Source of the DNA: Edaphochlamys debaryana
Taxonomy: Eukaryota > Chlorophyta > Chlorophyceae > Chlamydomonadales
DNA: 64,000 nucleotides
NCBI GenBank assembly: GCA_016858145.1
Contig: JAEHOE010000041.1
Coordinates: 496,001 to 560,000 of the forward strand
Reading direction: 5' to 3'
In this document: piece after piece, positions 16,857 through 64,000 of the stretch
Layout of the letters: every line of letters starts with the position of its first letter
Numbering within the stretch: position 1 is the first letter of the stretch
The notes under the pieces: generated by a model
What the model saw: only the letters and a program-made list of their open reading frames with translations
What the model was told of the DNA's origin: nothing
Databases searched by the model: none
Translations under genes and position numbers: made by a program

Positions 16857-18032
16857 TCACTGCTTCCCCAGCGGTGGGAGCTTGCCCAGGGGCGGGAGGC
16901 TCCCCAGCGGCGGCGGGTTGTTGGAAGACGCCGACGAAGGGCCGTCCGTGGGGAAGGCTCCACGCGGCGACAAGTTCCGACTCATCGACCGCCCCAGTGT
17001 GCCTCCAAGGGAAGCCCCCAGTGGGGCGCCAAGGCTGCCCCCAAGGCTGCTGCCCAAGGGCGCCCCTAGCGATCCACCCAGCGGGCCCCCGAGGGTTCCG
17101 CCTAGCGAGGTCCCGCCCAAGGACACCCGCCCGCCGGCGCCGCCAGCCTCAGCAGACATGCCACTGATGCTGGGGCGGCCGCTGCCGCCGCCGCCCAGGC
17201 CGCCGCCGCTGCGGCTGCTCGGGCCGCTGCCGCTGCCGCCCTGCCCGCTTGTGTGACTAGGGATGTGCTGCATCCCCATCATGCTGGTCCCACCCAGGCC
17301 GCTGATCCCCGCGCTGCCGCCGCCCGCGCCGCTTATGCGCTGGCCTGTCTGCAGCGAGCCGCCTATCAACCGCACGGGCATGCTGGATTCGAGCGCGGTG
17401 GTCGCCTTTTCGGGCTCGTCATCGCCTTCCATCTTCGCGATGTCCTCGGGCTTCGCGCCGCGAGCGAGCAGCTCGTCCTTGATGTTGCCAGGCAGCACCT
17501 CTACCGGCGGAGGAGGAATGCTGAGGCTGCTGGCCTTGGCCAGCGATCGCGCCTGCGCGGTGAGGTCATCGTCATCGCCCTCCTCGGGCACCGATGGCCC
17601 GCCGGGGTTGGACGTGCGTCCCCCAGCCGCCGTGGGAAATCGACTCGACCAGCGGCGCGATAGCGCGCGCGGTGGGCCGTTGTTCATCCCACTGGAATTG
17701 ATGCGTCGGGCCACCGAAGTTCGCTCGTCGGTCCATCCCTCGGGCTTTCCACTGGGCGTGGGCACCAGCACGGCCGGCGAGGCCTCGGGCACTGGCGCGA
17801 GCGTGTCGTCCTTGTCCACTTGCAGGGGTGGAGGCGGCTGGGGCGGCGTGGGCCCGGCGTGGACCTTGTACTTGCCACCCGAGTGGGCGCCCAGGGTGAG
17901 GATGCGCTTGACATTGTCCCAGAGCCCGTTGCTGGAGGGCGGCGGAATGTTGGAGCGCGAGGGAGAGCGGTACGGCCCGCCATTGCCATTGGCGCCCTCC
18001 TCCCCAGCGGCAAGCGGATTGAACTGGTTGTA
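16857..18032 (-). other. Gene A cytosolic tail (last exon)
   Basis: One exon of 391 residues after the TM exon. It opens with YNQFNPLAAGEEG and holds a charged region (PEEGDDDDLTAQARSLAKA, DELLARGAKPEDIAKMEGDD). A Gly/Leu/Ser repeat of the type GGTSLGGTLGGPLGG follows, and the end is LGSLPPLGKLPPLGKQ. It is Ser/Pro/Gly-rich and probably disordered. It lacks the HHWSYALPQ motifs of genes B and C. Confidence 0.85.
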
Positions 18033-21000
18033 CTGCAGGGTACAACAAGGTGAATTAGGGCAAGGGGGTGGTCATCAGTGCGAGATCATGGCAAAGCATG
18101 GGGGGGAGGGGGTCCACAGCACAGGACACGTTACACCGGGCACAAGGGAGGGACAGCCGAGCATATGCATCCATGCGTGTACAGATGTGCCACCTGCCTC
18201 CACCCTCGGGCCCCCACCCCCGGGTTACTCACCCAGTTGTCCGCGTTCGCAGCCCGGTCCTCCTCGTGCTTGCGCTTGTTGCGCTGCATGAGTAATAGGA
18301 TGATGATGATCAATGCCAAGCCGCCCAACAGGCCGCCCACGACGCCGCCAATGATGGCCGCCTTGTTGTCCTCCTCCGGCGGGCTGCTGCCCGAGGGGGT
18401 CGGCGTGGGCACGCCCGACTCCCCCGACAGCGTGCTGGGCGGGGGTGAGCTGGTCACGGCCAGGGGGGGCGTCTGCGTGGCGGACAGAGTGGGGGACGAG
18501 GAAGGATGGTGGGTGGCCTAGGCAGGCAGGCTAAGACCTTGCTTGCAACCCAGTGCTGGATTCCGCCCCCCTCCCACGCAAGCTCCCTCACCTCCGGGAC
18601 TGCCACCCCGCAGACCGTGGCTCCAGTCATGCCAAGCCCCGTGGCGTCCGTGGGTACGGAGCTGGCGCACGCCACGCTGTACGCCGCCATGCCCTCCGTG
18701 CTCAGCTGAGCCGTGTATGACACATCGGACTGCGGATGGTTGGCGGGGCGGCGGTTAGCAGTTAGTGAGAAGAGCAGCGGCACGTGTGTCTGTGAAAGCG
18801 ACATCAGCACCTAGTTGTGCAGATGCGACCACAGCTGCTTACCCGCGTGGTGCTGGCCATGTCGGCCGCCGTCGGGATGCACATGCCCTGCAGCGGCGTG
18901 TTGGCGTCCCGCCAGGCGACCATGGAAGCGTACACGCTGTCCGCAACACCATCAGGCTGGAGGCCGTTGAGCGCATCCGTGTTGGTCGCGCTCGGCGTGG
19001 CCTCGAGATCAACCTGAACCGCCCATGCGCTGCCCGCAACATCTGTCGGGCAACTCCCGAGGAAGCGCGCGCGACCGATGTTGCGACTGAGCTGACGTAT
19101 CTGTCGACGCTCCTGCAGCAGGCGGTGCGCTGTCTTGAGCGCGGCGGTGTTGGTCGCGACGCATTGCACGTTGTTGAGGCTGCTCGCGGCCAAGCCCAGC
19201 GCTTCGAGGCTGGTGGTCAGCTGGGCGCGCAGGCCGTCAATCAGCGCTGCGTCGCACGTGACCTGCAGAGGCGGTACAGGGCATCAGGGCAAATGCAGGG
19301 CTCAGCCAGCGAAGGGGCAAGGCAGGGATCGCCAAGGAACGCGAGGCGCTCTTGTCTCCACCAAGGACCTCTTTACCCCCTGCCAACCCCGCAGCGCCCT
19401 TGACCCCTGCCCCCAGCCCCCATGTCCACCCCTTTCCCCGCCACCCTCACCGTGCTCGGCAGCGGCATGAGCGGCACGTCCACGCGCACCGCCTTCACCA
19501 GCCACTGCGAGGACCCGGGGTACAGCGTCGCAAACACCTGCGACCAAGAGTCCGCCGCGCCGCCGTCCGCGCCGTCGCTGGGCGGGACCGCAAAGGACAC
19601 GTTCCAGGTCGCCGTCAGCGTGCCGGCGGGGTTCTGCGTGTCCGTGAGGTTCTCGGGGACCATTAGGAGCGGCTGCGCGGGGGGTGACGGCGGCCTCGGT
19701 CGCGGTGGGGGAGGTGGGGGAGAAGGCGGCAGGGGCGGGGCAGGTGAGGGCGGGGACGGGCGCGGAGATGGTGGAGCGGGGCGAGGCGAGGGCGGGGACG
19801 GGCGCGGCGACGGCGGCAGCCGCGGCGGCTTGGGCGGGCTCGGCGGGAGCGGGCGCGGCGGCGGCGAGGGCGGCGACGGCGGCGATGGCAGGTCCGGCGG
19901 TGGCGGCGGCGGCGGCGGGAGCGCGCCCGCGAAGCCGCTGATCCGCACCGCGTCCACCACCGCCGATGGGTCCAGCTCAAACACGATTCCTGCCACCAGG
20001 TTTTCGGCGGACCAGGAGGAGCAGCTGTACCAGAAGGGCGCTGCGCCGTCGGTGCACACGGTGCTGTCGGTGGGGCAGTTCCAGAGCTGTGTGGGTGAGG
20101 GAGGGGCGGCAAGGGAAGGGAACAGGTGAGACGGAGGCAAGGGGGATGGCGTAACTGAGCATGGGGAGGGGGGGTCGACGGAAGTCTCATCGCTGCATTC
20201 TCAGTCTCCTACGGCCGCCCCAAGTGGCCTTCGCCCCGAATCCCCAGCCCAATCCCCCCGCCCGCACCCCACCCACCCAGTCCAGCTTTCCGTCGCTCCG
20301 CAGCAGCGCCACCTGCCCTATGGCCCCCGCGAACTCGGAGCTGGCGATGCGGATGCCCATCTGATGGGGGAGAGGGAGAGAAAGAGGGAGAGGGAGAGGA
20401 ACGTGGAGACGGCAGGAAGAGGGGAGCTCAGGATGAGGGACGGGGAGGTGTTGCGTGTTGGCGAGGAGCAAGAGGCGGGTCGCCCGAGCCCACCGGCCCG
20501 CCCGCACCCCGGCCGCACACCAGGCCCAGACCAGGCCCCAAGGCAGGCCCAACCAGGCCCCAGCCAGGCCCCAATCATGCCCACCTGGCACGCGTACAGC
20601 GGTCGGTCCATCATGACGATCAGGAGCTCCCGGGTGCCCGGCAGCGCGCCGTCCCCCCGCCAGGCGATGCTGTAGAGCTGCGCCCGCGCCTCCTCGGGGA
20701 CCACCGAGGTGTTGTCGAAGCAGGTGCCGCCCTGGAAGTCGGGGGCGCCCATCATGCCCTGTGGATGGGGGAGGGTTGAAAGGGGGGAAGAGCGGGGAGC
20801 GGGGGGAAGGGGGGGAGAGGGGAAGGGGTGGGTGGAGAGTCAGGCAGTGAAGCTCGCGACGTGACGGGTGGGTACCACAGGGTTCACCACGGGCGCGGGC
20901 TGCGTCCTGCTGAACAGGTCGGAAATGGCGAATGCTCCGGCTTCGTGCTTCGCTGCTTGATAGCGGTGCGCAGTAGGCAGCATCAACCAGGCTGCTAGCT

Positions 21001-24000
21001 GGACGTGACCGCTTCCCCTCATTGGATTCATTGCCCACCTGCGTGTTGTCCTTGTGACTGCTTCCTTCCCCAGCCTACTTCCCAGTTGCCCAGTCCTCCC
21101 CTGCCTGCCCTGCTCGACGGCTCCTTCTCCTAGCTGGACGGTTAGACCCAGGCTCCCCAGCACCCCAGCACGCCAGCACCCCAGCACTCAGGCCCACCTG
21201 CGTGTTGTCCTCGAAGCCCGACCCCGGCACATAGGAGCCATAGGCCGACACCTCGCCCGCACTGCAGTCCGCCAGGTTGGCCGGGCAGGGCACGGGGCAC
21301 GTGGACACGGGCACAGGCGGCTGTGGCGGCGACGGCGGGTATGCCGGCGGCAGCGGCGGCGACGGCGGCGGGGGTGGCGGCGGCGGCGGCGACGGCTTCG
21401 GCGGCGGCAGGGGCGGCGCGGGTGGCGGCGGCGATGGTGCCGTCGGCGGTGTGGTCGGCGACGGCGGCAGCGGCGGGCTCGGCGGCGGTAACGGCGGTGG
21501 CGTGGGCGGGAATGTCGGCGGCGCGGACGGCGGCGGCGATTTGATTGTGTCGTATCCGACCAGCCGTACGGCATCCAGTACGACACCTGCCGACATCTGG
21601 AAGGCCACGCCCGCCACCAGGTTCTGGTTTTCGGGCAGGCTGCATGAGTACCAGTAGGCCTGCTGGGACGGGTCGGTGCCCAGGCACTCGTAGCCGGCGG
21701 TGATGCAGTCATCCAGCTGCAGGGAGTGGGGGAGGCGGGGGGGAGGAGGGTTGGGTATTGGGTGGTGCGGGCTAGGGGGGTTGAGGGTAAGGCCCTGGTG
21801 TTGAGTCTTGGAGGGAGAGCGCTATCAGCCTTGCCGGGCTCCCATCCGGGCTGGGGCCATTAGTAAGGACCAGGTCCCGCTGACCTGTCAGGCGCTGTAA
21901 GGCTGCCCTTCTCTCCTCCCCATCTTGGAAGGTGCCGGTGGCCCAAGTGATGGCAAAAATTGCCCTTCCCTGCCGCGTTCCCTGTCCCCCCTCACCCCTT
22001 CGCCTGCACTACCCCTTCCCCTCCTCCCTGTCCTCCTTACGTATTGGAAGGTGCCGGTGTCCCAAATGATGGCAATGGACCCCACAAAGTACCCGCTGGG
22101 GTTGCTCGCGACGCGCAGCGACACCTGACACGCGTACAGATACTTGTCAAACAGCATCATGACCTGCGGCCCGAACGCGTCGTAACCGCCCGTCCACAGC
22201 TTGTCAGAGAGCTCGGGCGTGAGCGCGTCGGGGCCTGAAACGCAGAGCTGATCGCCGTAGTCGGGCGGGCCGAGCAGCGCCTCGGCTCCAGGGAATTCGC
22301 CGAGAAACTGGTTGCCGTACGCATACGTCTCGCCGACCTCGCAGTCCGCGACGCCGACGGGGCAGGACGCGGCGCAGACGCTAGGCGGCGCGGGCGGGGG
22401 CGGCGGGGGGGGCGGGGAGGGCGGGGAAGGGGGCGAGGGTGGGGGGGCGGGGGGCGAGGGCGGCGAGGGCGGTGCAGGCGGGGGCGCGGTCGGCGCGACG
22501 GGCGGCTTGGGCGCTGGCGGCTTCGGCGGAGGCTTCGGCGCCGGCGGCGGTGGCGGTGGCGGGGGCGACGGCTCGGGAGGTGGCGGCACGGCTGGCGGCG
22601 GCGTGTGCGGCGGCCATGGCGTGTACGGCGGAGTCATCGGCACCTCGGGGAACGGCGGCGGCGTGCCGGGCGGCGGCGGGAAGGAGCCGCCGTAACCGGT
22701 GAGCTTGATTGCGTCGACCACGGCAGCTGCCTGCAGCTCCACCACGAGTCCGGCGGCTAGGAAGCTGACGTCGGACAGGTCGCAGGTCCACCAGTAGGCC
22801 TGCTGCTCGGGGGTGGCCCCGGTGCAGACGGTGCTGTCGAGGGGACAGTCCAGGAGCTGGGGGGAGGGGTGGGGGGGTGGGAAGGAGGGGGTTGGGGGGT
22901 GGAAGGGGTGGCTAGTGTGGGCATGTATGGAGGGTAGGAGGTCAGCTTGGAACGCAAGAGACAGTGGGGTTCAGGTCTGATAGCTGAGCCGTCGTCAGTG
23001 TCCCCACGCCCCTATCTGCAACCTAACCCCTGGCTCACCCAGCTCAGCACCCCGTCCAGGCCCATGAGCGCCACCTGCCTCCCTCCCCCCCTTGCATCCT
23101 CCCCCCCTTGCCTCCTCCCCCTCTTGCCTCCCCCTCCCTGGCTCACCCAGCTCAGCACCCCGTCCAGGCCCACGAGCGCCACCTGCCTCCCTCCCCCCCT
23201 TGCCTCCTCCCCCTCTTGCCTCCCCCTCCCTGGCTCACCCAGCTCAGCACCCCGTCCAGGCCCATGAGCGCCACCTGGCCCAGGCCCCCGCCGGGGTTGG
23301 AGGCCACCTTGATGGCGAGCTGTTGGGGGGGAAGACGGGTGTGTGGGGAGTAAGGAGGGGTTGCGACTTGAGAGGAGGACGCTTGGGGCTTTGGGTAGAT
23401 AGGAGCTAGTTGGGGACGTTCGAGACTGTGGAGGCAGAGGTGGAATGACGCAGCCCTGGAACCAGCGAGCGCACCTGGCAGGCGTACACGGGCCGGTCCA
23501 TGATCACAATGGCGAGCTGCCCCATGACCGCCGAGCTGCCGCTGAGGCTCCACAGCTGGTCGCTGTACTGTTCGGGCACAGAGCTCGAGTCGGCGAAGCA
23601 GGTGCCGTTGTACGTGTCGGCGCCGACGAGTGGATAGTAAGTTGGATCGTCGCCGAGACCCTTCGCGACCCAGACCGTCTGCTCGCCCGCGGCGCAGTCC
23701 ACGGCCATGTCGGTGCGATCGGTCGGACATGCTGCCATGCAGGTCGCCGCGGGTGGCGCGACGGGCGGCGTGGATGGTGGTGCGGGCGGCAAAGGCGCAA
23801 AGCCAATGACTCGCACCGAGTCCGCCACCACAGCGCTGTGGAGTGACACCTGCACGCCCTTGGCCGGGACCTCGCTGTACGGCACGTCGCACGAGATCCA
23901 CGTGGCCGACTTGTTCGTCTCGGCCGTACAGGGGTCGCTGACGATGTTGCAGCTCGCGAGCTGCAGAGGGGATAGGTGCGCGGGGCCAGAGGTCAGAAAG

Positions 24001-27000
24001 GAGCCCCGACGGGAGGCTGGTCACGGGAAGCCAGGGGGCTGAGTGGTGACATGCGCAGCCAGTGCGCAGCGCTAGCTAGCTAAGCTGTTGGGGGGTTCAA
24101 GGTGGGGCAGGGGAAGGGCGCTTTGCGCACTTCCGCCTCTTCTGCTGTTGGGCTTGTATTTTCCTCTTTTTCTCACAGCCGACTAGGCCCAGAACCCCCT
24201 GCAACAGCCATATCCCTCGCAGTCAACGTCTCACATCGGCGGTGGAGTCGTCCACATAGATGATGTTGTTCCACATTACCGTGTTTCCTCCTGGGTTGCT
24301 GACAAGCAGCACAGCCACCTGCGGGCGAGCGCAAGCCGGGGACGGGGGTGAGTCCAGGTTTGCACACAGCCCCTCCAACCCCCTTGCCCCCCTCCCAGTC
24401 GGCTCCTTCCACACTCCAACCCCCTTCCTCTCCCCCGCTCTCTCCTCCCTCTCCTCCCCCCTTGCGAACCATCCACCCACCTGGCACGCAAACACAGACT
24501 CTGCAAACGTCAGCGTCACGATGGTCGACTCCTCGGGTGGGTCCCCCGGTGCCGTCCACAGCTGCCCCTGCAGCTCCGCCGTCACATTCTCAGGCCCGGC
24601 CAGGCACTGCCCGTAGTACGACGGCCGGCCCGCCAGCGCCGCCACGCTGACGTCATCGCCCGGCTGTACGGCAGCGTACGACACGACCTCGCCCACGTCA
24701 CAGCTGGCGGTACCGTTGGGGCACAGGAAGGTGCAGACGGGGGCGGTGAGGGGGGGCGCGAGGGGCGCGAGGGGTGCGGGCGGGGCCAGGGGCGGCGGGG
24801 GGGCGATGGGGGCGTCGGGTACGTTGGGGAGGCCCGGTGGCGGCGGCCACGGGGGCAGCGGCGTGTACGGCGGCCACGGGGTGTACGGCACCCAGGGCCA
24901 GCCTGGCGGCGTGGACAGTATCTCAGGCGGCGAGGGCGCGCTCGGCGGTGACTGCTTGAGCACCGGGAAACCAATCACCCGTACGGCATCCAGTACGGCC
25001 AAGTCGTCCACCTCGAACGCCAGGCCCGACACCAGGCTGGTGCTGTCCGGCAGATCGCACGTGTACCAGTACGGCTTCTGATCCGGTGAAGTACAGACTG
25101 TCGAATCCAGCACGCACATGCCGTCCAGCTGGGGGTGGCGGCGCGGGAAAGCGGAGGATGGTGGGTTACGAAAGCCAAGTGCGCACGAGGTTGGGCCGTG
25201 TAGTTTGCGCCAGCTGCTAGCTCGCCAGCCCACTGCCCGCTTCGAAACAGCTGGGGTCCCCAAAAGGCAAGCGCGCACGAGGTTGTGGCGAGGCACGACA
25301 TGGGCCGTTTGGCTCTTGTCAGGCTAGCACGTGAAGGAGCCGCCGGCAAGCAACCAATACCCTAAGCTGGTTCAGCAACGCAGCGCTAGGTGGCGCTAGG
25401 TGGCGCTAGGTGGCGCAACGCAGGGCGCTAGGTGGCGCGGCCGCGGGCCCGGGCTCACCCAATTGAGCACGCCGTTCCATAGGATGAGCGCCATTGCGCC
25501 CAGGGAGGTGCCCCCGTTGGAGGCCACACGGATCGAGACCTGGGGCGGCGGAGGGCAGCGAGGCAGGCAGGGCGGTTGAGAAGGAGCGTGGCCGGTCCGG
25601 ATCGACAGCTTGTGTCGGGCGAAAGAGAAACTGGGTTGCCCCAACCTACGCCCCCTGGACTCTTCTCGCTCCTCGGCAAACGGCACAAGCGCCAGCTCGC
25701 CCCTCTTCCTCTTCCGCCCCCCCCCTCCCCCGGCCCTCACCTGGCACGCGTACACGCTCTCATTGAAGTTCACCAGAGTGACCTGCTTGTACGGCGATCC
25801 GCCGGGCCTAAACCAAAGCTTGGATTTGAGATCCTCATCCGACACGGCCGTGGAATCCGTGAGGCACTGCCCGTTGTAGTCGGGCGGTCCCATCAGAGGG
25901 TCGCCGCCCTGGCCGGGCGCCGCATCTCCGCTGCCGCCGCCGCCGTACACCGTGATCTCGCCGATGTTGCAATCGATCATGGGCTCATCGAAGTAGTACG
26001 GCGGCCCCTCGCACGGCACCTTGCATTGGGACGAGCCCGGTGCGAGCGGCGGGGACATGGGGGTGGCAGGGGGTACGGGCGGCGACGGCGGTGGAGCGGG
26101 CGGCATCGGCGGGGCCTGCGGCGGGTCCGGCTGCGGCGGCGGGCCGTACGGCATGTAGCCAACCACCCGTACAGCATCGATCACGGCGGTGCCGTTGAGC
26201 GTGAAGATCACGCCGCGGGCGTAGGCCGCGGCCGGCAGGTTGCACCTGGGGGGACGGGGAGCGGGGGTCGAGAGCGTGTGGTGAATCACGAGTCCGGCGA
26301 GCGGTGGAGCAAGCAACAACGGGGGTTGGCGCATGAGAACACATGAGCAGCCAGCACGGGTTGACACGTGACGGAAGATCTGGGAGCAAGGAGGGCGCCA
26401 CCAAAACACAGCGCTCCGCCGGCAACCAGGCCTCAGGGCGGCATCAGTGAAAAGCGAGAAGGCTGGGTCTGTCGTGCGAGTGGCTGAGAGGCACTCCGCT
26501 GACCTACGGGGCGGACGGAACCCGGGTTCTCGGCAGGGGCCTGGTCGGGGCTGCTCACCTGTACCAGTACGCCTCGCCCCACGCGGCGTTGCCGTCGCAA
26601 AGGTTGTTATCAATGGGGCAATCGAACTGCGGTGCAGGGGGGCGGGGGGATGGCCGGACGGACGCTCAGGGGAAGTAAGAGTAGGTGATACTGTAGTCGT
26701 TCGCACCAGCTACGAGAAAGCGGGGTCATGCAGGGGAGGTAAGAGATCGCCGTGTGCACAAGCGCCTCGAGGCCCTCCCCGCCCCTTCCATGCATCTCGT
26801 CAAGCGCTATTTGTTCCCATCCGCGCCGCGCCGGCCCCGGCGATTGCCCACACCACACAATCCCAGGCGGCAGGCTTACGTATGCGGGTTCGCTGCCGTT
26901 CAGCAGAAGGCCGACGCGCGTGACCGTGTTGCCCTTTGTGTTGGATGCCACCCGGACCGCAACCTAGGGGTGGGGAAGGGAGTGTCATGAGCATGGGTTG

Positions 27001-30000
27001 CCTCGGTTTAGAGAGGGGAAAGACCGCGGTGCACGGACCTTTTCGCGACCAGGCCCCAAGTGGGCCTCCGGCGGGCCCAAGCTGGGCCCAAGCGCTCCTA
27101 ACCTCACCCCCCTCACCTGGCACGCGAACACCGGCGTATCCAGCGCCACCTCCACCACCGCATCCTTTCCCTCGGGCGTGGTCCACAGCTGGTCCGTGTA
27201 CGAATCCGGTACGAAGTTGGGTCCGTCCATGCACGGGCCGTAGTACGTCTCCCAGCCCAGCAGGGTGTTGTACCCGCCGGGGCCGCGATTTGGGTCGGTC
27301 GCGTTTGAGGACGCGTAAACCACCATGTAACCCATTGAGCAGTCGGACTTTGCCGGGTTGCACGGGACCTTGCATTGATCGGGCGGCGGCGCCTGAGGCG
27401 GGCTGGGCGGGGCCGGCGGCGCGGGCGGCGGCGACTGCAGCACGCCGTACCCGGCAATCTGTACGGCATCCAGTACGGCGGTGGGCGTGATCTCGAACGA
27501 CAGCCCGACGGCCATGTTGTTGATGATTGGGATGTCGCACGAGTACCAGTACGCGATCTCGCCCGGGAAGGTGCCGGTGCAGGGCTGCTGGTCACTCGGG
27601 CAGTTGAGCTGCGGGTGCATGGGGCCGGGAACACACGATAAGCACAGTATACACATGGTCCACACGGGCTTGCTAGGTCAAGAAAACAGGCCGGCATTGG
27701 TATGCAAGCCAGCGAGTATGTCTCGGACGGGTGCAGAAACATGGAGTTTGGCTCGACATTGGGCCTTCTGGCATCCTCCACTGCACTGTACATTTCCCCG
27801 TACAGGCCGTACGGGATACTCACGTCCGACTGGAAACCGCCGTCCACCAGCAGTGAGACGCGCCCAATGGGAGAGCCGGGGCTGCTCGCGATGCGGAACG
27901 ACACCTGCGCTCACACACGGCGGTGGGGCGAGCAGGCGGTAGTGGGCACGTGCACGGCAACACGCCGGCCCTCACTGTGCGCACGCCAAGCCCCTGCCCG
28001 GCCTTCCAACACACTGCTGGGGTGCTAGGCGCCAGCCGCCTACAACGCTCAGCTCTCTCGCCCTCTTTCCGCCACCAGCCCTCAGCCCACCGCTCCTACT
28101 GCCCCCCCACTGCCATCTCACCTGGCAGGCGTAGATCTTATCAAACGTCAGATTGATCGTTGCCCGCATGTCGCGGCCTCCCGTCGTGAGCGCGGCCCAC
28201 AACTTGCCCTCCGTTTTGTTGATGGCGGCAGAGCTCGCAATGCAATCGCCGAAGTATTGCGGACCGCCAAGAAGCGGCGCGATACTGTCGGTTCGGGCCG
28301 CATCGCTGGTGCCGGTCGCGTATATCAACTTGTAGTCGTTGCAATCCGCGGCCCACCAAGGACACTCGGCCAGGCACGCAAAGGGCGACGGCACGGCGGG
28401 CGCGTCAGGGGCATTCGGCGCGTACGGCGTGTACGGCGGGAGCGGCGTGTACGGCGGCAGATCGGGCCAAGCGGGCGGCGCGTCCGGGTAGTACGGCGTG
28501 TACGGCGGGAGGGGGGTGTACGGCGGCATGTCCGGGAAGGAGGGGGGGTTGGGGCCGAAGGGCGGGAAGTCCGGCATGTACGGCAGGCCGGGGAACTCTG
28601 GCGGCATGGGCGGCGCGGGCGGGGGCGAGGGCGGCGGCGGCGGTACCAGTGCCGGGTATCCCACGACGCGTACGGCATCTACGACCATCGTATCTGCCAT
28701 GCCGATCGTGAGGCCCGACACCAAGATGTTGGCGCTGGCCAGGCGGCACGTGTACCAGAAAGCTTGGCTGGGAGCGTTCGTACAAGGCACGGGGGTGTCA
28801 CAGTCAGTCACCTGCGGCATTCGGGCAGTACAAGGGGGCGTGAAGGGCGGGTGCAGCGGCAAGAGTCAGAAGCGAAGTAAAGCATTGGGTTCAAGCTTAC
28901 GGCCGCCAGGGTACACATGCCCCGACCCCCCTCCTGTGCCGCCTTAGCACCTCGCTCCCAGCACCCTGCACAACCCCAGCACCCACCTCACTCAACAATG
29001 ACCACACCCCCGCACCAGCACCAGACCTTCCCACGCTCCTCGACCCCAGCGCCCAACCACCCCTTCCCGCACACACATAACCCACCCAGATCATGACTCC
29101 GTTGGGCAAGTTGAGCGCCACGGGACTGATGGCGGTGCCTCCAGGCGTGCTCACCACCCGCACTTGGACCTGTGGGGAAGGGCGGGGTGGTATCTTGAGC
29201 AAGAGGAAACCGTGTAGCGTCCTAAAGTAGATAGCGTCGGCCACCGAGGGGCGGGGGCAGGAAGGGAGGGAGCGGAAGGAGCGGCTTCCGCCCCCCCTAT
29301 CCTCGCCCTTCCATGCCCACATCTTTTATACCTTAGCACCCGCTCACCCCGCCCCCACCCGACACCGGCGCGCCAAGGCACCTCCAGGCCAAAGCCAGCG
29401 CCAAGCAAACCCTCCCCACCCTTACCTGGCACGCGTACAGCATCTGATCCAGATCCACCATAACGAGATCCTGCCCGGATCCAGCTTTCGGGACCCAGAG
29501 ATCTCCCGTGAGCTCCCACGGCACGGCCCAGTTCCCGGGCAGGCAAGATCCGTCGTACGTGGCGGGCCCCAGCAGGGCGTCGTACCCCCCGAAGGCCGCC
29601 CACTCGGGGTCAGAGGTGCCCGCGGAAGCGTAGGCAGCGGTAACCGTGGAGCAGTCGGCGGTGGAACCCGGGCAGGGGAGGCCGCAGGTGAGGGCATCGA
29701 CGCCGGGGGCGGCGGGGGGCGAGGGCGGGGCCGGCAGCGGGTACCCGATGACACGCACGCCGTCCAACACCACTCGGTTGGAGAGGCTCAGTGTGACCCC
29801 CTTGACGAGCGACTGCGCGTCGGCTGTCATGCACCTGGGGGGTGGGGGCGTTTGGGGGTGGGGTGCGGTTACAGCAGGCGTGAGGGTGGGGGAGCGGAAG
29901 GGCGAGGGAGCGGGTGAGAAGGAAAGCCAACAGGCGGCCATGCAACCAAGATAGCCAGAGGGAGGTCAAAGAAGAGCGGGGGACTGGTGATGTGGTGCTG

Positions 30001-33000
30001 AAGAGGGCAGCGCTCCTGGTTTCTTCACTGTGCCCCGGCCGCGCCAGTGGGAGGCCAGGGGAACGGGGGCCCGGTGAAGCGGCGGGGCAAAGTCAGACAT
30101 GTTTTCCCCTACTACCGCACCTGAACCAGAAGGCCACCTCTGCGTCGCTGGTGCCGTTGCAGCGCTCCGCTCCGGAACAGTCCGTCAGCTGGGGAGCGGA
30201 GGGTTGGGGTGGGCGTAAGGGGATGGGGTGGTGTGGGGTTGGATGGAGTTGTGAGGCGGCGGGGAGCAGTTTGGCGGCAGCGAGGGGGGCTGTAGTGATG
30301 GATCTCGTCCGCCGTCTGCCAGTGTGGAGAAGTGATGGGGCTTCTCACCGGCGTCTGCCCGCTGGGGTAAAGGTCCACCATGATGGGCCAAAGGTCCAGC
30401 GCGACGCGCCCCGGCGTGCTGACGACACGGATGTTGACCTACAGGGGGTAAGATGGGAGGCATGTGGCCGAGCGAAAGGATGAGCGAGCGCGGGGACGCG
30501 GGGCCGTGGCGGTGCCGCAGCGTGCCGTAACCTGCCGTGCAGTCGTCTCGCCTCGGTTACGCCCGCCGCCTCGGCGACCTCAGGCACAACCAATCAGCCT
30601 CTGGCACCCAGCCCAGAGCCGGCCCAAGCCCAAGCCAACCTGACCCAACCAGCACACCATGCCCGAACCCGTGTCGCTCACCTCGCACGCATACACCGGC
30701 TGCGCCAGGGACACACTGACCATATCCACATCGCTCGAGCCGGCCGGCAGCGAGAACACCTGACTCGCCAGAGCCGTGGGCACGGACTCAGGTCCCGCCA
30801 AGCACTTCCCGGCATACGTGGGCTTCCCGATAAGCCCACTAGTGCCTGTGGGACCGGCGGCTGCGTAGGTTTCGATCGGACCGGAGGAGCAGCTCGCGCC
30901 AGCTGGGCACTCGGACGGGCAGGTGGGTGGTGGGGGCGCGGCAGGCGGCGACGGGAGCGGCGGCGGGCTGGGCAGGGAGGGGGGCGGCGACTTGACGGCG
31001 GGGGCGAAACCCACGACACGCACGCCGTCCACGACGGTTGCGTTGTCGAGATCGAACGAGATGCCGTACGCGAGCGCAAAGGGATTGTTGAGGGTGCACA
31101 TGTACCAATAGGCGCTCTCGGTATCATCGCGGCCCAGGCAGGGGGTGATGGGGGCACAGCTTGACACCTGCGGCGAAGGGAAGAGGAGCAGCCACAGTAA
31201 GGCCAAAACGGTCGTGGAGTCGTCGCTGAAAGCAGCCATGACAGAGGAGCGCCATGACTGCTAGTGAAACTGTTTAGGAGTTGAGGCGAGGAGCCAGGCG
31301 GCCTACGCCTCAAGGCCGGCTGTTACCGGTATCCTCAAAAAGGGCGGCATAAGCCTGAGAAAGCGGCCCACGTCTGGCCGTATTGCATGGCCTCACCATG
31401 CTCTTTATGCCGCCCGCAAGGCTCAGAGCAACGTTTGTGACCGACGAGGGTAGTCCGGGCGTCTGCGTGATGCGGATCCCCACCTGCGCAGCACACATAC
31501 GACAGAGCACACGTGTTCGGCCTTGTCCTGAGGACGGATAACGCCCACGCAAACCTGGGGATTGCCTAGTACTGCCCACCAGCCCCACTGCCACTCCCAG
31601 ACGCACCGAGGACGCGTACACGGGGTACACGTGCGCCGGGCTTACTCACCCCACGCGTCTGCACATATAGTCCGGTCTGCCTTTCACCCCCTTCGAAAAC
31701 CCCCGGACGCACCGAGCAGGCGTACACGGGCCGCTGCAAGGGCACCAGCACCGTAGTCGGGCCCGGGCCCTCCGGCGGTACGTACATCCCATCGCGATCT
31801 GCGTCCAGGATCTCCGACGTATTCGCCGTACAAAGGCCCGCATACGCCGGGGCTCCCGCAAGCGACGGCAGCGCGTCGACTCCGCCGTACACCACAATGG
31901 GTCCCGTACAATCTGCCTCCGGTTCCGGGCACTGGTCCATGCACGACACATCGGGCGATTGCGCGGCCGGCGGCGGGTAGCCCAGCACCCTCACTGCGTC
32001 CACTGCCACTCCCTCTGACAGCAGAAAGCGAATGGCCGCCACCTGTTGGCTTGCGTCCAGGGTGCACGTGTACCAGCGGGCAGCACCGCCCTGGCACGGG
32101 TCCTGGGCGTCGCAGCTGTCGACCTGAGGGCCGGATGGAAAGGAAGGGTTGGGGCGGGGGCGACACGGCTGGGGGAGGCGTGGGGAGGTCCCGCTCGAGC
32201 GCGTGAGGCCCCGCGCCCGGGCCCCGTGTAGAGGGCACACGTCGGTTCCACAAGGCCAAGCACCGCCACAGCTGAAGCTGGAATAGAACACGAGGCCCCG
32301 TGTCATCGCCCCTACCACGGGCTCCGCTGGGCTAAGGCAAGCCACCCCCCCTCGCTCACCCCGCCCAGGGTTCCGTCGCTGAGCATGGGCAGGAGATCCA
32401 TGATGGCTTCCGAGCCCCCGGGGCTGAGGACCACGTGGATGGCGATCTGGGGGGTGGGACGGGGATGGGGGGGGGCAGGGGAAGGGGAGGGAGGTTGTGG
32501 ATCAGGGCGAGGCAGGACATGTGCCCAACACCTCCCCCGCCCGCCCGCTCCTCCTCACCTGAAACCTGTGCTCCCACCCACCCCCACTCCAAGCCCCCGA
32601 GACGCTCCTCACCTGGCACCTGTGCTCCCACCCACCCCCACTCCAAGCCCCCGAGACGCTCCTCACCTGGCACGCGTACACGACCTGCCCGAAGTCCACC
32701 GTGAAATTCTTGGGCCCCTGGCCCTCAGAAACCATCAGCAGGCTGGCCAACTCGTCGGCCCGAATCGCGCTCGCATTTGCAAAGCACGTATCGAACTTTG
32801 GCGCGTCGACAAGCCCCGGCGCCACGTCGGCGCCGTCCACGCCGTACGCGAGTACGGCACCGGCCGTACAGTCCGCCGGCTCCATGCACGGCGTGATGCA
32901 GACATCGTTGGGCGGCGGGGGCGGGGGCAAGGCCGGGGGTGGCGGCGGCAGCTTGCCAGCCCACCCCACCAGCTCCACGCTGTCGATCACCACCGACTCG

Positions 33001-52777: not shown

Positions 52778-55746
52778 TCAGGTGGGCCGCCACTCGATGG
52801 GCGTCAGGCCCTGCTTCTCGAGCAGCGCGTTGGCCTGGGAGAAGTGGCGGCAGCCGAAGAAGCCGCGGCTGGCGGAGAGCGGGGAGGGGTGCGCGGAGCG
52901 GAGCACGTGGTGCTTGGAGCTGCGGGGGTGGGGTGGGGTGGGTGTGAGGAGGGAAGGGGGAGGAGGGGGATGGCGTGTGGGATATAAGAAGGACGGTCAG
53001 GGCGCGGAGGAGGGGGCCAATCAGCAAACCTGGCAGCGCACGGCAACGTACCGCCCCGCATGCCCCAGCATATGGCCGCTCGCGGCAGCCTGCCTGGGAG
53101 AAGGAGGTCGCCACCGCACCGCCCCGCTGCCCTGCATGCCCCAGCCCACACCCCTCGCACATGGCGGCCACCCGCCGACGCACTGCTCCGCGGCTCCTGG
53201 AGGGCCGGGCGGCTCTTCCAGCCCCTTCCCCACCACCCTCCCAACCACGCATTCCTGCCCTACTGGCCCCACCCCCCACCTCCCTCTGCTCACGTGTCGA
53301 TCAGGGCGGCCTTGGCCTGCGCCGGGTTGCCCCACAGCAGGAACACGATGCCGGCCCGCTTCTGCGACAGCGCCCTGATGGCTGCGTCCGTGAAGGCCTC
53401 CCAGCCGCGCTTGGAGTGGCTGTTGGCCTCGCCCTGGCGCACCGTGAGGCAGGTGTTGAGCAGCAGCACGCCTGGGGGAGGGGGGGGGTAAGGGGGGGAG
53501 GAGAGGGTAAGGGGAGACAGGTGTTGAGCAGCAGCACGCCTGAAGGAGGGTGGCAGGGGGGCATGTGGAGGGGGGTGAGATGGATGAAGGAAGGGGGTGG
53601 GGTGCGGACGGTGTTTGGGAACGAGGAGGCAAGTGCTGGGCCGCAGCACGCCTGGCGGTGAGAAGGAGGAGGAATGGAGAGGCACAGAGGGGTGACGAGA
53701 GGTGGATGGGATGAGGCCTCAGTCAAGTCCAGCGCGATACCGGCACATACCAATCTAGCCCCGCCACGGCAACCCCCTCCTCCCCCGGGCCCGCCCCCAC
53801 CCTGCACGCTCCACGAGGTGAGGTCGCCCTTGGTGGGGCGGTCCGCCCAGCCCAGGTCGGTCTGCGGGGGGGGGGGGGGGAGGGGCACGGACAGGGGAGG
53901 GACAGGGGGCAGCACGAGCGGGTGAGTGACAGCAGGCAGGCAACAAGGCACCAGACGCGCACGTAGGGTCAGCCCACGTGTTTCCTCGGCTTCCACGAGC
54001 AGCCCCCAACACCCATCCCTCCCACACCTGCGCCTCCATGTAGATGTAGCCCCACCCACTCTTCCTCCAGCCGCGCACACACATTTCCTCCGCGCGCCAC
54101 CCCTCCACCCTTTCCCCACCTTGCGCCCCTCCCCAACAAGGCCCACCTGCGCCTCCTTGTAGATGTTGAGCAGCGAGGGCGGCAGCGCGCACCCCGGGGG
54201 CACCGAGAAGGACAGCCCCATGGCCTGGCCGGGGCCGTGGTAGGGGTCCTGGCCCAGGATCACCACCCGGACCTGGGGGGGGGGGGGGGCAAGGGGGGGG
54301 GGAGGTGGGAAGGGCTGCTCGCATGAGCCTGGGAGACTGAGGCGCGGGGATAAGTGGGGGAGGTGTGTGTGTGGGGGGGGAGCCGTGAAGTGGGGCGGGA
54401 AGCAAGTAAGGGGAGCGTGGATGGAGGGTAAGTGATGGGGAGCGCGGCTTGCGGAGCAGGGGGGAGGGGTGGGCGGCTGGGCCGGAGGGGGGGAGCACGT
54501 CTGGTGCGCTCGACCGCAGCCGCGGCCTTCCAGACGTCGCCTCCCTCTCAACGCCCCGGATGAACAATTACCCAACCCCTCCCCTCCCCGACCCCATCCG
54601 GCCGCACCCGGTCAAAGGGGCAGCCATCAAGTGCCACGGACTTCCTGACCTAGAAAGCCCCGCCTTCCTCAACTTTCCTCCCCCACCCCATCGCCTCCCC
54701 CACTCCACCCACGACCCCATCAGGCCGCACCCGGTCAAAGGGGCAGGCGTTGAACGCCTGGAAGACGGCGTCCCGGGGCGGGAACACGGGCTTCTTGCCG
54801 GGAGCCCACTCGCCCCTCAGGAAGGCCTCGAGGCTGCGCATGCCGGGGGTGGCCAGCTGAGGGCCCAGGACCTCCTGCCAGGAGGGCTCCGTGAGGAGGG
54901 AGGCCAGCGCCAGGGGGGGCGCGCCAGGGGCCGAGGCCTGGGTGACGGCCAGTCGGGCCAGGGCGCGGTTGCGGTTGGCCGCGATCTGGGTCGGGCGGGT
55001 TGGGGGTTGGGCGGGGTTGGGCGGGGTTGGGAGGGAGGAGGGAGGAGGGAGGGCGGTGGAGGGGGTTTGGGATGTGTATGACAAGGATGGGTAAGGAGGA
55101 GGAGAGAGGAGAGGGTGGGATGAGCGGGAGGAGGGGGCAAGCAGAGCAAGCGGGGAAAGCGAATGGAGGAGAGAAAGCATGGTGGGATGTGGTTCTTATG
55201 CGCAGGGGCGCAGAGGGCCCTGATGGGCGGACGCGCACCTGTGCTCGTTGCGCGGGAGTCAGCCCGTCGTCGACTGCCTCAGCTGGCGGTGCCGAGGCAG
55301 CCTCCGGCACATTGGCGGGTTCCGCTGTCCCGCCGGCAGCGTCCTCCACCGGGGCTGGGGCTGCGACGGATGGTGCGTCCGCATCTATCTCCATTTTACG
55401 CTTGCGGGCTGCCGCACGCTGTGCCCGGGGCGACATCCCCGCGGCGGCCCCAGCATCGCCGAGTGCTGCTGCCTCTGGCGACATACGCCCAGCAGCTTGG
55501 CCGGGCTCCGCACCCGCCGGAGCTGCTCGTGTTGCGACGCCAGAGAACTGTAGATAACGCAACCGACGTTTAGCGCGTAGCGCGACAGCGACTCGCGGCC
55601 GAGTTCCCCGTGAGGCCACGCCATTTCAAGCTCACCGGTTGCTCATCCAGCGATGGACCAGGCTTTTGTTGTTGTTTCGGCGCGAAGAAAGACTCTATCG
55701 TCTTCTTAGCGCGCTTGGCGTCCTTGAGCACCGCTGACGAAGCCAT
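52778..55746 (-). CDS. UNG: Uracil-DNA glycosylase (family 1), nuclear form
   Basis: Removes uracil from DNA, the first step of base-excision repair. Exons 5' to 3': 55636-55746, 55239-55547, 54731-54985, 54272-54147, 53861-53801, 53471-53294, 52919-52778; 393 aa, all phases agree. The catalytic block [18 protein letters not shown] carries the water-activating Asp. Then follow [13 protein letters not shown], the [12 protein letters not shown] strand, [14 protein letters not shown], the uracil-reading region [12 protein letters not shown], and the minor-groove loop [20 protein letters not shown] with the catalytic His. The N-terminus ([14 protein letters not shown], residues 11-24) matches the PCNA-binding PIP box of nuclear UNG2, with Lys replacing Gln. 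A Pro/Ala-rich disordered spacer with the basic patch RAAARKRK follows. It is divergently transcribed from the PsbP-like gene. Start: ATG 55746. Confidence 0.97.
54590..54746. repeat. Duplicated UNG exon edge (period 123)
   Basis: Bases 54590-54623 copy 54713-54746 (the end of the third UNG exon, encoding CPFDR, with donor) with one mismatch. Similar copies of the next exon's edge lie at 54027-54050 (of 54142-54165), and of the acceptor of exon 6 at about 53515-53540 and 53640-53660. Confidence 0.85.
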
Positions 55747-58496: not shown

Positions 58497-58595
58497 GGAC
58501 AGCTAGCTGTGTGTCAACGGCAGCGTAATTGCATAGCTATGCTGCTGTAACGGGGGGTGGAGGGCGGTGGAGGTGCGGTCCTGGCTGCATGGGGC
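58442..58595. repeat. Terminal-exon fragment duplicated downstream (period 127)
   Basis: Bases 58569-58595 repeat 58442-58468 (encoding EVRSWLHGA) with one mismatch in 27. The copy lies beyond the poly(A) signal. Confidence 0.8.
58546..58550 (+). terminator. TGTAA poly(A) signal of the PsbP-like gene
   Basis: TGTAA 50 bases after the stop codon, in the expected position for a short chlorophyte 3' UTR. Confidence 0.75.
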
Positions 58596-60326: not shown

Positions 60327-63300
60327 CTAGCGCCCGAAGCGACTGCCGGCGCCAATGGGCGGGAGGCCGCCCAAGCGCGACGGCTGCGCCGCCGCCTGCA
60401 CCACGCCAGTTCCGCTGTTGCCGCCGAGGGAGGGTCGGCCGCCGGTTGCGGGTGGAACCGAGGGGCCGCTCGAGGAGGAGGAGGAGGACGAGGAGGTGGA
60501 GGAGCGGGAGGAGGCCGAGGACTGGTGGGAGGACAAGCCCGGCGGCGCGTGCGGCGGTACCCCGTCGCCAATGTTGTTCGAAAGACCCGGAGGCGGCGGC
60601 GTTGGAGGCGGGGCCTGCGGGGCCACGACCCCAACGCTGTTGCTGGAGAATGACAAGCCCGGAGGCGGCGGCTTTGGAGGCGGGGCCTGATCTGACCCCT
60701 CGACAACGCTGTTGCCTGCCAGTGAGGGCCGGCCCGACCCTGGCGGCGGTGCTGCGGGGCCAGCAGCCGATGGGGATGGGCGCGACGAGTCCGGCACATG
60801 TGTCTCGGCCGGGAACGGCGCCCCGTACGCTTCCCCAGGTGTCAGCGATCCTCCCAACGGAGGCAGCGACCCGCCCATCGGGGGCTGACGCTGCGACTCG
60901 GTCCCTGAGCCGTGGTCTGAGCCGGGCGCGGGCGGCCCCCGGCCTGAGCCCGCCAGAGAGCCCGCCGCTCCCGCACCTGCCGCCCCCCCGTCCGCGCTGT
61001 CCTGAGGCAGCGCGTAGGACCAGTGATGACTGTCCTGCGCCGCCGGCGGCGGAGGGTACGGTGGCACCTGCGCTGTCCCTGATGCGTCCGCCGGTGCAGG
61101 CGGCACGGTCGCAGCCCCATCCGCTGGCTGCTGCGGGGAGGCGCCGTCTGGCGGCCCTTGTGGCAGTGCGTACGACCAATGGTGGCTGTCCTGCCTAGCC
61201 GGTTCCAGTTCCGGGGGCGGCGCCGTACCGGACTGGCCGTACGACACGGCAGCATCCTCCGGTACGGTAGCTAGGCCCCCCTCGTCGTTAGGAGGTCTTG
61301 ACTCGTCGCCCAAGTCCCCGGGCAGGGAGTTCTCCCGGACCGGCGGCGCTCCGAAGGGATCGGGGGCCGGGGCCGCGGCCTGCTCCTGCCCGCTCCCCGA
61401 GAACCGCTTGGACGTCCGCTGCGGGTACGGCGCTTGCCCGTACGGTGGCGGCGAGCCGCCGGGCTGTTGTCCGTACGGCTGCTGACCGTGACCGTACGGC
61501 GGGGGTGCCGACGGCCCCGCCCCGCCCTGCTCAGGCGGTTGTGCGCCCCACGGCCCCTGGCTCTGCCGCCAGGCCTCCTGCCCCGCCTCCTCTGGAGCCA
61601 CCAAGGGCGAAGGGCTGGGCCCATCCGACGGCATCACCCGATTACCACTGCTTAAGCGCCCCGATGCCGAGGGGCGCAGTCCCTGGCGGCTGGGCGTCGC
61701 CTGCAGCGCCGGCTGTGCGGCCGCCGCTTCCGCCCCACCCGCCGCCGCCGCTCCCGCCCCTGCGTCCGCTGCGTCCGCCGTCCCGTCCGCTGGGCTGACC
61801 TTTTCGCGCCGCACGTGTCGTACGATCAGTACGGCAGCCGCCACGCACAGCACGAGTACGAGCAGGCCGCCCAGCATGGATCCCACACTGATTCCGATGA
61901 GCTGGCCGTCGCTCAGGCCGTTGTCGCTACCCTGGGGAGACGGCGAGGCCGAGGACGCTTGCAGCACCTGAGGGGGAAGAACAAGGGGCAGAGGAGTTGG
62001 GCGAAGCAGGAGGATGACACGAGAACATAGGCAGAAGCGGGGGCAGAGCCGGAGTGAAGGTGCTTGAGAGCGCGTGCGCTTTGTGGAGAGGGATACATGC
62101 GATCCCAAGCAGGACAGGCGGCTGGCGATTGGGGGCGAAAGGAGCCGTTAAAGCGCGTTCGCCAGGGATCAAGCAGGGTGGCAGGCAACCGGGCAGCCCT
62201 GTTCCCTCACCGGCGCTGCCTGCACGAAGCACGAGACCCGGGCCCCGGGGAGGCCCATCATGGCCGCCCCCTCGGCGCTCAGCACGCCGTTCACGCAGGC
62301 GGCCTGGAAGGTGGCCAGACCGCCCGAGCTCAGCTGCAGGCGGTACGTGACTTGGGCCTGCGGAGGGAAGGGGCAAGGGTAGGAGTTGCATCTCCTGCTT
62401 TCCTTAGTCAACAAGCCCCCAAAGCGAACAGGCAGCGCACGGCAGCGGTGCGCACCTGGGCTGTTGTGATGATCTCGCTCGAGGGCGGCACACACATGCT
62501 CGCCAGCGCTGCGGTGCCGACCTGCCACGCCCCGACTCCGGCGGCGGTGGTTTCGGCCATGTTGCTGCTGTTCATCGCGCCAAAGGTGCCGCCGCCCGAG
62601 GGAGCCCCCCCGACCGCAACCACGACCGTGGGGCTGCCCGGCGCAGGATCGGGGCAGGCACCGGCGAGCAGCCGCCGATTGGCATCATTACTACCGAATG
62701 CAACACCCACGTCGTCCGCAGCAGAAGCGCCATCGCTGAGGAGGAGTCTCGCGAGTCTTCGGCGCCGTGCGGCAACACCGCACCTCACGTCGTCGAGGCT
62801 ACCCACGTCGAGGCCCAGGGCGGTCAGGCTGGAGGAAAGCGAAGACTTGAGACCCGCGAGCAGGTCCGCAGAGCACGTGACCTGCAGGTGTGGGACCGGC
62901 AGCAAGGGCGGGGGGTAACAGGTGGGGAACGCGGGCGGGGCGTTGCCAAGACTGGAACAGGCGTGGGCCTTTGCGCGGCCCCACACCCCAAATGCAGTCC
63001 CCGCCAACTCCTTTCCAACCGGTTACAGAGTCCACCCCACGGCTCACCCCGCTCGGCAGCGTCAGTGGCGGTACATCCAGCTGTACCCCCGTCACCTCAA
63101 ACTCCGCAGAGTTTGGGTACAGGCTGGCGAACACTTCGGTCCACGTGTCCCCCGTGGGTACTACGAACGTCACGTTGACGGTTGCGGTTAGGTTTCCTGC
63201 CGTACTGTTGGCGTCTGAGGCTGTCAGGAGGGATGACAGCATCATGGGAGAGGGAGGTAGGGGCGGGGAGGGCGATGGGGGCCGGGCCACGGAAGGGGGC

Positions 63301-64000
63301 GGCACGGGCGAGGGTGGAGGTGGATCGGTGGGCAAACGGGATGGTGGGCTGGGGTTGGTTGGGGCCGGGGCTGCATCGGGCTTAGGGGAGGAGTCCGGCG
63401 GTATCAGGGCCGATGGTGGAGGGAGGGGTGGGGCTCGGCGAGCTGACGTTGGTGGGCGGGGGCTGGGCATGCTTGCACGTGGCGAGGGCGATGCAGGGCG
63501 TGAGGAGGGCGGCGAGGGAGGGGGCCTGGGAACCGAGGAATAGGAAGGGAGAGTGGTGGGTGTGCGCGAAGGGTAGACCGGGGGGGAAGGGGGCGGTGCC
63601 AGGGGCGGCCGCTTGGGTGGGCTCGGCGATGTTGGGGGGCTGGGAGAATGCGGCGCGGGCGATGATTTGGGCGTGGGCGGGAGTGCTGAGAAGGTGGAGG
63701 GCGGAAGGGTCGGCTGCTGGAGCGGGCGAGGTGGCAAGGGTTTTGGAGGATACGCAAGCAGATCAGGGGGGCTTGGCGGGGGCGACCGCAGAGGCTGTGG
63801 AGATGGGTGGGGCGGTGGAAGACGCGGCAGCGATGGGGACGAGTTCCCGGGCGGGGGAGTCAGGCCGGTCGGGCTGCGAGGCGAGGGTGCACTCTTGGGC
63901 GGGGCTGGGGGGCTGGGGGACTTGGGCGAAGGCGTCGGAGGCTGGGGCGTGGGAGGCGAGGGCGATGCGCCGGGTGGGCGCATGGGTGAGGGAGGTGGGG
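60327..64000 (-). CDS. Gene C: third giant membrane protein, 3' part (5' end outside window)
   Basis: Exons seen, 5' to 3': stalk from beyond 64000 to 63048, membrane-proximal 62881-62456 and 62357-62211, TM plus tail 61967-60327 (546 aa). The stalk is a long run of PPSP and SPxP, then LLTASDANSTAGNLTATVNV..TGDTWTEVFASLYP. The domain VTCSADLLAGLKSSLSSSLT..VRC and AQVTYRLQLSSGGL follows. The TM is LIGISVGSMLGGLLVLVLCV..VRHVRREK. The tail holds repeated PYGQ/PPYG, two DSHHWSYALPQ motifs, a Ser run, and the end SRLGGLPPIGAGSRFGR. The architecture from stalk to C-terminus equals that of genes A and B. The open frame continues to the window edge, so the ectodomain lies outside and its domain number is unknown. 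Confidence 0.88.

Follow-up and report, generated by a model that had tools for sequence, protein, structure and literature searches.

Pherophorins, matrix proteins of the volvocine algae, have hydroxyproline-rich rods, and in yeast the wall-integrity sensors Wsc1 and Mid2 have a cytoplasmic tail and Wsc1 a Cys-rich head. In Chlamydomonas the mastigoneme proteins MST1 and MST3 and the incomplete-PKD receptors are described as combining globular or Cys-rich domains with polyproline-II rods, some PKD-type proteins carrying C-type lectin or SEA domains (PMC11015965). Wall removal sets off a strong gene programme in Chlamydomonas, for which sensors exist only as proposals, and the plant CrRLK1L and WAK receptors are reported as absent (PMC6704257). 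For the sensing of a protein wall by an alga, the multivalent heads of predicted lectin fold on Pro-rich rods described here offer a concrete candidate for knock-out.

Gene models and their support

The window, a stretch of 64,000 nucleotides from Edaphochlamys debaryana, holds the following genes.

16857 to 37121, minus strand: gene A, 36 exons, 3852 aa, with signal peptide, 14 eight-Cys modules, Pro-rich stalk, membrane-proximal domain, transmembrane (TM) helix and 409-aa tail
37122 to 38258, no strand: 1.1-kb intergenic region between the divergent start codons of A and B
38259 to 51128, plus strand: gene B, 19 exons, 2664 aa, with signal peptide, seven eight-Cys modules, 304-aa Pro-rich stalk, membrane-proximal domain, TM helix and 487-aa tail
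60327 to 64000, minus strand: 3′ part of gene C, with the end of a giant Pro-rich rod, membrane-proximal domain, TM helix and tail

The models were built by hand from the genome sequence and the splice sites were picked by eye for GT-AG, so that the GT-AG introns of A and B are not independent support. Such support is provided by the cysteine register, the open frame and GC3. A single frame is open across the 36 exons of A and the 19 of B with no internal stops, the introns are mostly phase-0, and GC3 is 0.85 and 0.80 against an intron GC of 0.66 and 0.64. Over four collinear stretches of A and B modules dN/dS is 0.22–0.55. TGTAA is a poly(A) signal, and the three sense-strand copies, two in A and one in B, are all intronic. 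Hydropathy gives one strong TM helix in each of A and B, with type I topology. Both promoters would have to sit in the 1.1-kb intergenic region.

The gene models and hydropathy support the family of modular, giant, Pro-rich single-pass proteins put forward in the earlier note. Its three genes are indeed members, but the family is larger and includes D and E. No family match was found in the interval between B and C (about 51.1–60.3 kb). The likely first exon of C lies ~3.5 kb past the window edge, and its Pro-rich rod of >1000 aa is mostly beyond the window. A strict motif search found no eight-Cys module in gene C or up to 30 kb past the window; as read, the build of C, D and E comprises a rod, a membrane-proximal domain, a TM helix and a tail, but no modules.

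Eight-Cys modules and their predicted fold

The modules lie as follows, introns included.

35280 to 36545, minus strand: module A1
34081 to 35222, minus strand: module A2
32955 to 34029, minus strand: module A3
31971 to 32906, minus strand: module A4, 71% identity to B4
31000 to 31949, minus strand: module A5, 88% identity to B5
29735 to 30927, minus strand: module A6, additional phase-2 intron in C part
28650 to 29692, minus strand: module A7, 70% identity to B6
27441 to 28382, minus strand: module A8
26149 to 27380, minus strand: module A9, additional phase-2 intron in C part
24961 to 26031, minus strand: module A10
23793 to 24741, minus strand: module A11
22686 to 23747, minus strand: module A12, MID exon partly reduplicated in next intron
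21546 to 22382, minus strand: module A13, N and MID parts in one fused exon; used for structure prediction
19925 to 21305, minus strand: module A14, additional intron in N part
38905 to 40054, plus strand: module B1
40169 to 41367, plus strand: module B2
41416 to 42353, plus strand: module B3
42414 to 43335, plus strand: module B4
43357 to 44089, plus strand: module B5
44213 to 45121, plus strand: module B6
45422 to 46354, plus strand: module B7

Eight cysteines are in register in all 21 modules, each of 160–185 aa, which stand in tandem (14 in A, seven in B, none in C) with Pro-rich linkers in between, bearing out the earlier description of Cys-rich repeats in A and B. Profiles drawn as subsets of one joint alignment found every target: that of A found 7/7 B modules, that of B 14/14 A modules and that of the back half of A, a search the earlier note had proposed, 7/7 modules of the front half, with no matches in 200 shuffles. 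The head-to-head paralogues A and B are a clear case of module loss.

An intron minisatellite and chimeric collinearity between A and B indicate that the locus rearranges. It is very improbable that exon strings of several short genes, or of copies in decay, were joined into giants by mistake, a reading to which this rearrangement and the hand-made models lend something; against it stand the single open frame of each gene, the cysteines kept in every module, the one strong TM helix per protein, the GC3 values, dN/dS below 1 and the intronic position of each TGTAA word. On the cysteines, dN/dS and GC3 a pseudogene mosaic was likewise rejected.

In the model of A13 the module is predicted to be a beta-sandwich of galactose-binding/discoidin type, with the jelly-roll of the galactose-binding domain-like superfamily and, as in the Pappalysin family, the form of a scarf-type domain, that of PAPP-A being the nearest. 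By this prediction, the green alga contributes to the galactose-binding/PAPP-A scarf fold a disulfide-rich eight-Cys branch without detected sequence relatives. That the Cys-rich domain matches no named family stands for sequence where searched, but is incomplete in view of the predicted fold.

Sixteen of the 21 modules, all but A1, A2, A4, A5 and B2, were scanned whole against Pfam, ten singly and A10–A14 and B5–B7 within stretches, two of the stretches with shortened linkers. None of the 16 has a strong match to a characterised domain. No galactose-binding family was matched in them at E up to 10 (beyond E 0.1 few matches survive the HMMER filters), nor was a PAPP-A family (hmmscan) or WSC, the last being rejected as a family. 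Ten modules gave three unrelated families only, one member each (best E 0.031), three spliced module stretches with three membrane-proximal domains gave no matches, and ten exon ORFs gave weak low-complexity and TM-like matches only, all below curated cut-offs. Membership of the pherophorins or of SRCR was also rejected, since neither the exons nor the modules that were scanned matched a pherophorin, SRCR or C-type lectin domain, as was identity as a protease, HExxH being absent from A and B.

One PDB profile search, the first, gave no match; the other gave ZneB (E 0.012) and a fatty-acid-synthase chain (1.1), judged to be chance or composition, and a viral fold library gave none at E 0.001 (best 0.86). 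Searches of a large protein set, one with B minus most of its tail and scoring residues 140–1560, found no relative; they find only relatives sharing five-residue words and are not proof of absence in other algae. The pattern TACGCCTGCCAG occurred 29 times and its reversed control 38 times. No named family with this combination of parts was found in the open-licence literature.

Modules of predicted lectin-like fold on Pro-rich rods, differing strongly in number between the neighbours A and B, might also belong to gamete or cell-cell recognition receptors, the expansion of the family giving recognition diversity. Among the surface receptors known from Chlamydomonas are the sex agglutinins (PMC6704257). 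The rapid divergence expected of recognition loci is, however, not seen in the module dN/dS, and this role seems distinctly improbable.

Stalks, membrane-proximal domains and tails

The remaining parts of the three proteins were mapped as follows.

36956 to 37121, minus strand: A exon 1, signal peptide, hydrophobic core at aa 24–45
38259 to 38448, plus strand: B exon 1, signal peptide by eye, core below the 19-aa hydropathy cut-off
19670 to 19930, minus strand: A Pro-rich stalk, 87 aa, 62% Pro
46349 to 47260, plus strand: B Pro-rich stalk, 304 aa, 48% Pro
18592 to 19633, minus strand: A membrane-proximal domain, three exons, 6 Cys
47303 to 49252, plus strand: B membrane-proximal domain, three exons, 6 Cys
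62208 to 63203, minus strand: C membrane-proximal domain, three exons
18287 to 18361, minus strand: A TM helix, GG-rich, then RNKRK
49590 to 49664, plus strand: B TM helix, by hydropathy
61821 to 61901, minus strand: C TM helix, by eye
16857 to 18286, minus strand: A tail, 409 aa, G/S/P-rich, ending LPPLGKLPPLGKQ; 200-nt intron 18232–18033 included
49665 to 51128, plus strand: B tail, 487 aa, P/A/G-rich, ending RLGKLPPLGKLR
60327 to 61820, minus strand: C tail, low-complexity

Signal peptides had been assigned to A and B and are present there; C also has one (by eye), mostly outside the window. The membrane-proximal domain, thought to have two exons, has three in A, B and C. An SEA-like domain is at most hinted at by a GSxxVxV strand and basic sites: scans of six membrane-proximal relatives, two of which were incomplete sequences, gave no SEA match, Pfam gave two unrelated families only for the six domains (best E 0.028), and the structure predicted for the largest membrane-proximal exon from three sequences was not confident (pLDDT 37). 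Across the family the TM helix carries glycine repeats and a basic stop-transfer.

Long low-complexity tails had been foreseen, and those of A and B reach the lengths given above. They end in LPPLGK repeats, common to A and B, and the word DSHHWSYALPQ is found in B, C, D and E; together these motifs suggest a conserved intracellular role. This speaks against purely structural anchors, in which the rods would fix wall to membrane and the modules act as spacers or wall-assembly points without signalling. Such anchors, which we consider unlikely, would suit the module-free build of C, D and E and tails in which no enzymatic domain was recognised.

The tails bear too on whether the family serves surface attachment and gliding as a flagellar glycocalyx or adhesion protein, like FMG-1B of C. 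reinhardtii, which A matches in size and topology, FMG-1B being a giant (4389 aa) with a single TM helix and almost all its mass outside (PMC7759384). By the lengths published there (4389 aa in total, 4340 outside, 22 in the TM helix) its inner part is ~27 aa, against tails of 409 and 487 aa in A and B. The mismatch led to rejection of orthology with FMG-1B, and the adhesion role itself appears unlikely.

A possible tether, and known systems

The reading that we favour, at about an even chance, places A, B and C in a single family of hydroxyproline-rich-glycoprotein type, with type I topology and one pass through the membrane, whose lectin-like heads on polyproline-II rods would grip wall, coat or cell as a tether and possibly a sensor. 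Four disulfides would stabilise each secreted head, and the Pro segments, once hydroxylated and glycosylated, would form the polyproline-II rods, setting the heads apart and raising them tens to hundreds of nm above the membrane. There they would face the wall, the flagellar coat or other cells, whose glycans or glycoproteins they could bind with multivalent avidity, the TM helix and tail linking this contact to the cytoplasm as a tether and perhaps a sensor of tension or integrity. Recombination at the linkers would alter module number and rod length and so tune reach and avidity. If the lectin-fold prediction holds, an algal cell could plausibly use such proteins to take hold of its wall or surroundings, or to sense them.

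A further, quite improbable step would cast the family as the so far missing wall sensor at the plasma membrane of volvocine algae. Here the lectin-like module strings would grip the glycoprotein wall, rod and disulfide-knit membrane-proximal domain would pass on tension, a cut at an RR-L type basic site ahead of the membrane-proximal Cys strand would give a force-releasable two-chain receptor, and the long tail would drive the wall-repair programme, while recombination, by changing rod length and the number of modules (from 0 to 14) between paralogues, would set reach and sensitivity. The earlier interpretation of these proteins is supported in part, as regards their architecture; their wall-spanning location and sensor-or-tether role we infer. 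E. debaryana is unicellular, so the colony stages proposed for expression checks are irrelevant.

Among known systems, the nearest predicted fold to the module is the scarf domain of the Pappalysins PAPP-A and PAPP-A2 (SD; M1 in another paper), at 14% identity. PAPP-A is a secreted metalloprotease, whereas A and B are without HExxH and have Pro-rich rods and a TM helix. From the galactose-binding folds (CBM32, F5/8 type C discoidin, F-type lectin) the modules differ in their eight conserved cysteines, their length of 160–185 aa and the lack of a Pfam match in 16/21. The WSC domain is shorter than these modules, and WSC-type sensors have Ser/Thr-rich rather than Pro-rich rods; here the modules are in tandem, up to 14. 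A single TM helix and an extended ectodomain are shared with Wsc1 and Mid2 (PMC6704257), the family having a cytoplasmic tail besides. FMG-1B, compared by description only, is like A giant, single-TM and mostly extracellular, with a very short inner part unlike the long tails here (PMC7759384). The anchor of MST3 is a PKD2-like multi-helix domain (PMC11015965), in contrast to the one strong TM helix of A and B, and it is this helix that also sets the family apart from the pherophorins.

Gene models and the eight-cysteine module

The window, bases 496001–560000 of contig C41, contains two complete genes of this family of giant, proline-rich membrane proteins and the 3′ part of a third:

37121 to 16857, minus strand: gene A, hand-built model with 36 exons encoding 3852 aa in a single open frame
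38259 to 51128, plus strand: gene B, hand-built model with 19 exons encoding 2664 aa
3′ end at 60327, minus strand: gene C, with its 5′ part beyond the window (30 kb of flank read)

The start codons of A and B are divergent and lie 1.1 kb apart. Most introns are in phase 0 (32 of 35 in A, with one in phase 1 and two in phase 2; 17 of 18 in B, with one in phase 1). Since the splice sites of both models were picked by hand, their GT-AG borders are present by construction; one acceptor in B ends in AAG. Support for the models that is independent of GT-AG comes from the register of the modules, from the GC3 (0.85 in A and 0.80 in B, compared with 0.66 and 0.64 for the GC of their introns) and from the poly(A) signal TGTAA, which occurs three times on the sense strand within A and B, each time in an intron. 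The mean GC of the window is 67%.

The extracellular repeat, a predicted lectin-like module of 160–185 aa, is present 14 times in A and seven times in B, with exactly eight cysteines at matching positions in all 21 copies. Outside the modules, A has two cysteines in the signal region and six in the membrane-proximal domain, and B has the same six together with one in the stalk and two in the TM helix. Introns usually split the module into an N part (CxxxC to YACQ), a MID exon of 27–37 aa and a C part carrying LDC...PCTG...YWYTC...VVDAVRVxGY. A single exon usually runs from the C part through the Pro-rich linker into the following N part; A6, A9, A13 and A14 depart from this layout. Using profiles that were all drawn as subsets from one joint alignment, the A modules matched all seven B modules (E 1.4e-36 to 5.3e-51), the B modules matched all 14 A modules (E 2.2e-26 to 1.2e-57) and, in the test proposed in the earlier note, the back half of A retrieved all seven front-half modules. 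The control of 200 shuffles gave no matches at E ≤ 10. At the end of the MID exon of A12 and in the intron after it there is a 92–108 bp minisatellite (23028–23277, minus strand), which copies the exon end with its edge AG and GT and gives additional potential mini-exons of 12 aa (VAL[VM]GLDGVLSW).

Divergence of A and B

Four pairings between the genes stand out, B4/A4 (71% identity), B5/A5 (88%), B6/A7 (70%) and the C parts of B7 and A10 (77%); the remaining whole-module pairs are 22–48% identical. One B exon carries the C part of B5 together with the N part of B6, and its two sides have different counterparts in A, namely A5 (88%) and A7 (82%), so an A6-like module was apparently lost from B through a join in the linker. 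The dN/dS values of the four paired stretches (0.42, 0.34, 0.55 and 0.22) and of the membrane-proximal domain (0.63) suggest that both copies are under constraint.

Rod, membrane-proximal domain and tail

A hydropathy scan with a 19-residue window gave a single strong peak in each protein (A 3418–3447, maximum 2.9; B 2145–2185, maximum 3.17), bearing out the earlier proposal of one TM helix. Weaker peaks, from just over the cut-off to 2.0, fall within modules or the membrane-proximal domain (four in A, three in B). The signal core was detected in A; that of B lies below the cut-off and was called by eye. The Pro-rich stalk measures 87 aa in A (62% Pro) and 304 aa in B (48% Pro), and the linkers add up to 514 and 222 aa, respectively. 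Scaled from the mastigoneme helix, for which residues 1854–1932 are described as spanning 22 nm (PMC11015965), the B stalk would be ~85 nm long and a 1000-aa rod ~280 nm.

The membrane-proximal domain, previously described as having two exons, has three in the gene models. In B its intron at 47462–48284 (plus strand) measures 823 nt, roughly three times as long as the average intron of that gene (271 nt). Alignment of six sequences (A, B, C, G and partial I and J) shows seven invariant columns, and by eye most of the domains have basic sites ahead of a cysteine. Prohormone-convertase-like processing has been proposed for secreted Chlamydomonas proteins, though not for this family (PMC6313938). 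The domain gave no relevant Pfam match and no confident model in structure prediction. The tails, of 409 aa in A and 487 aa in B, are of low complexity and end in LPPLGK words.

Gene C, its neighbours and the wider family

What is likely the first exon of C encodes a signal peptide and sits near position 67470 (extended window coordinates). After it come a Pro-rich open frame of 1032 aa, counted from stop to stop, and a second such frame. These minus-strand frames overlap, with a phase switch near 64.2 kb (extended coordinates 64136–64730) that is due either to a short intron or to an assembly error, namely a wrong base in a C homopolymer. No module turned up in a strict motif search of both strands at 60–94 kb. 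Outside the window, at ~569.7 kb (minus strand) and ~596.9 kb (plus strand) of contig C41, an FAD-binding motif (VAIIGGGPAGLA) occurs in open frames that flank C and a further family member, E, on the far side in mirror orientation, an arrangement suggestive of a large inverted duplication that includes C-like genes.

Within the window, an exon at 9397–10347 (minus strand) matches a pre-SET CXC domain with a score that falls just short of the curated cut-off (Pfam PF18264, E 1.5e-4), and the gene may on this basis encode a histone methyltransferase of the Polycomb E(z) type. The open frame at 53301–54611 (minus strand) contains what we take to be a family-1 uracil-DNA glycosylase motif; scanned in its raw form, the frame had no Pfam match at E 0.001.

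E. debaryana is a unicellular relative of Chlamydomonas with a published genome of 142.14 Mb in 527 contigs and a GC of 67.1% (PMC8226300). In the 141.9 Mb (502 contigs) searched here the family has at least ten genes, with weaker matches on further contigs. Besides A, B and C, membrane-proximal exons were detected in D (~585.7 kb) and E (~592.9 kb) on contig C41 and in F (C196), and modules beyond A and B on contigs C196 (F), C73 (G), C100 (H), C6 (I) and C93 (J); C101 gave no module match at E 0.5. From exon-level readings rather than finished gene models, G and J consist of a signal peptide, one diverged module, a long Pro-rich rod, the membrane-proximal domain, TM and tail; I was read with the same signal peptide, module, rod, membrane-proximal domain and tail. 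F has one module, membrane-proximal domain, TM and tail, and H about three modules in a reading that covers all but its 3′ end. No relative was found in a large protein set, which says little about other algae.

Our general reading of the family as putative tethers or receptors is held with moderate confidence; the parts are consistent with a multivalent tether or sensor of lectin-like type that is anchored in the membrane. In yeast, Wsc1 and Mid2 are described as single-TM sensors with glycosylated, spring-like ectodomains, and the same source reports CrRLK1L and WAK homologues to be absent from C. reinhardtii (PMC6704257). FMG-1B is likewise a giant single-TM glycoprotein, and such proteins are described as serving flagellar adhesion too (PMC7759384), but its inner part, as given there, is far shorter than the tails of A and B (409 and 487 aa).
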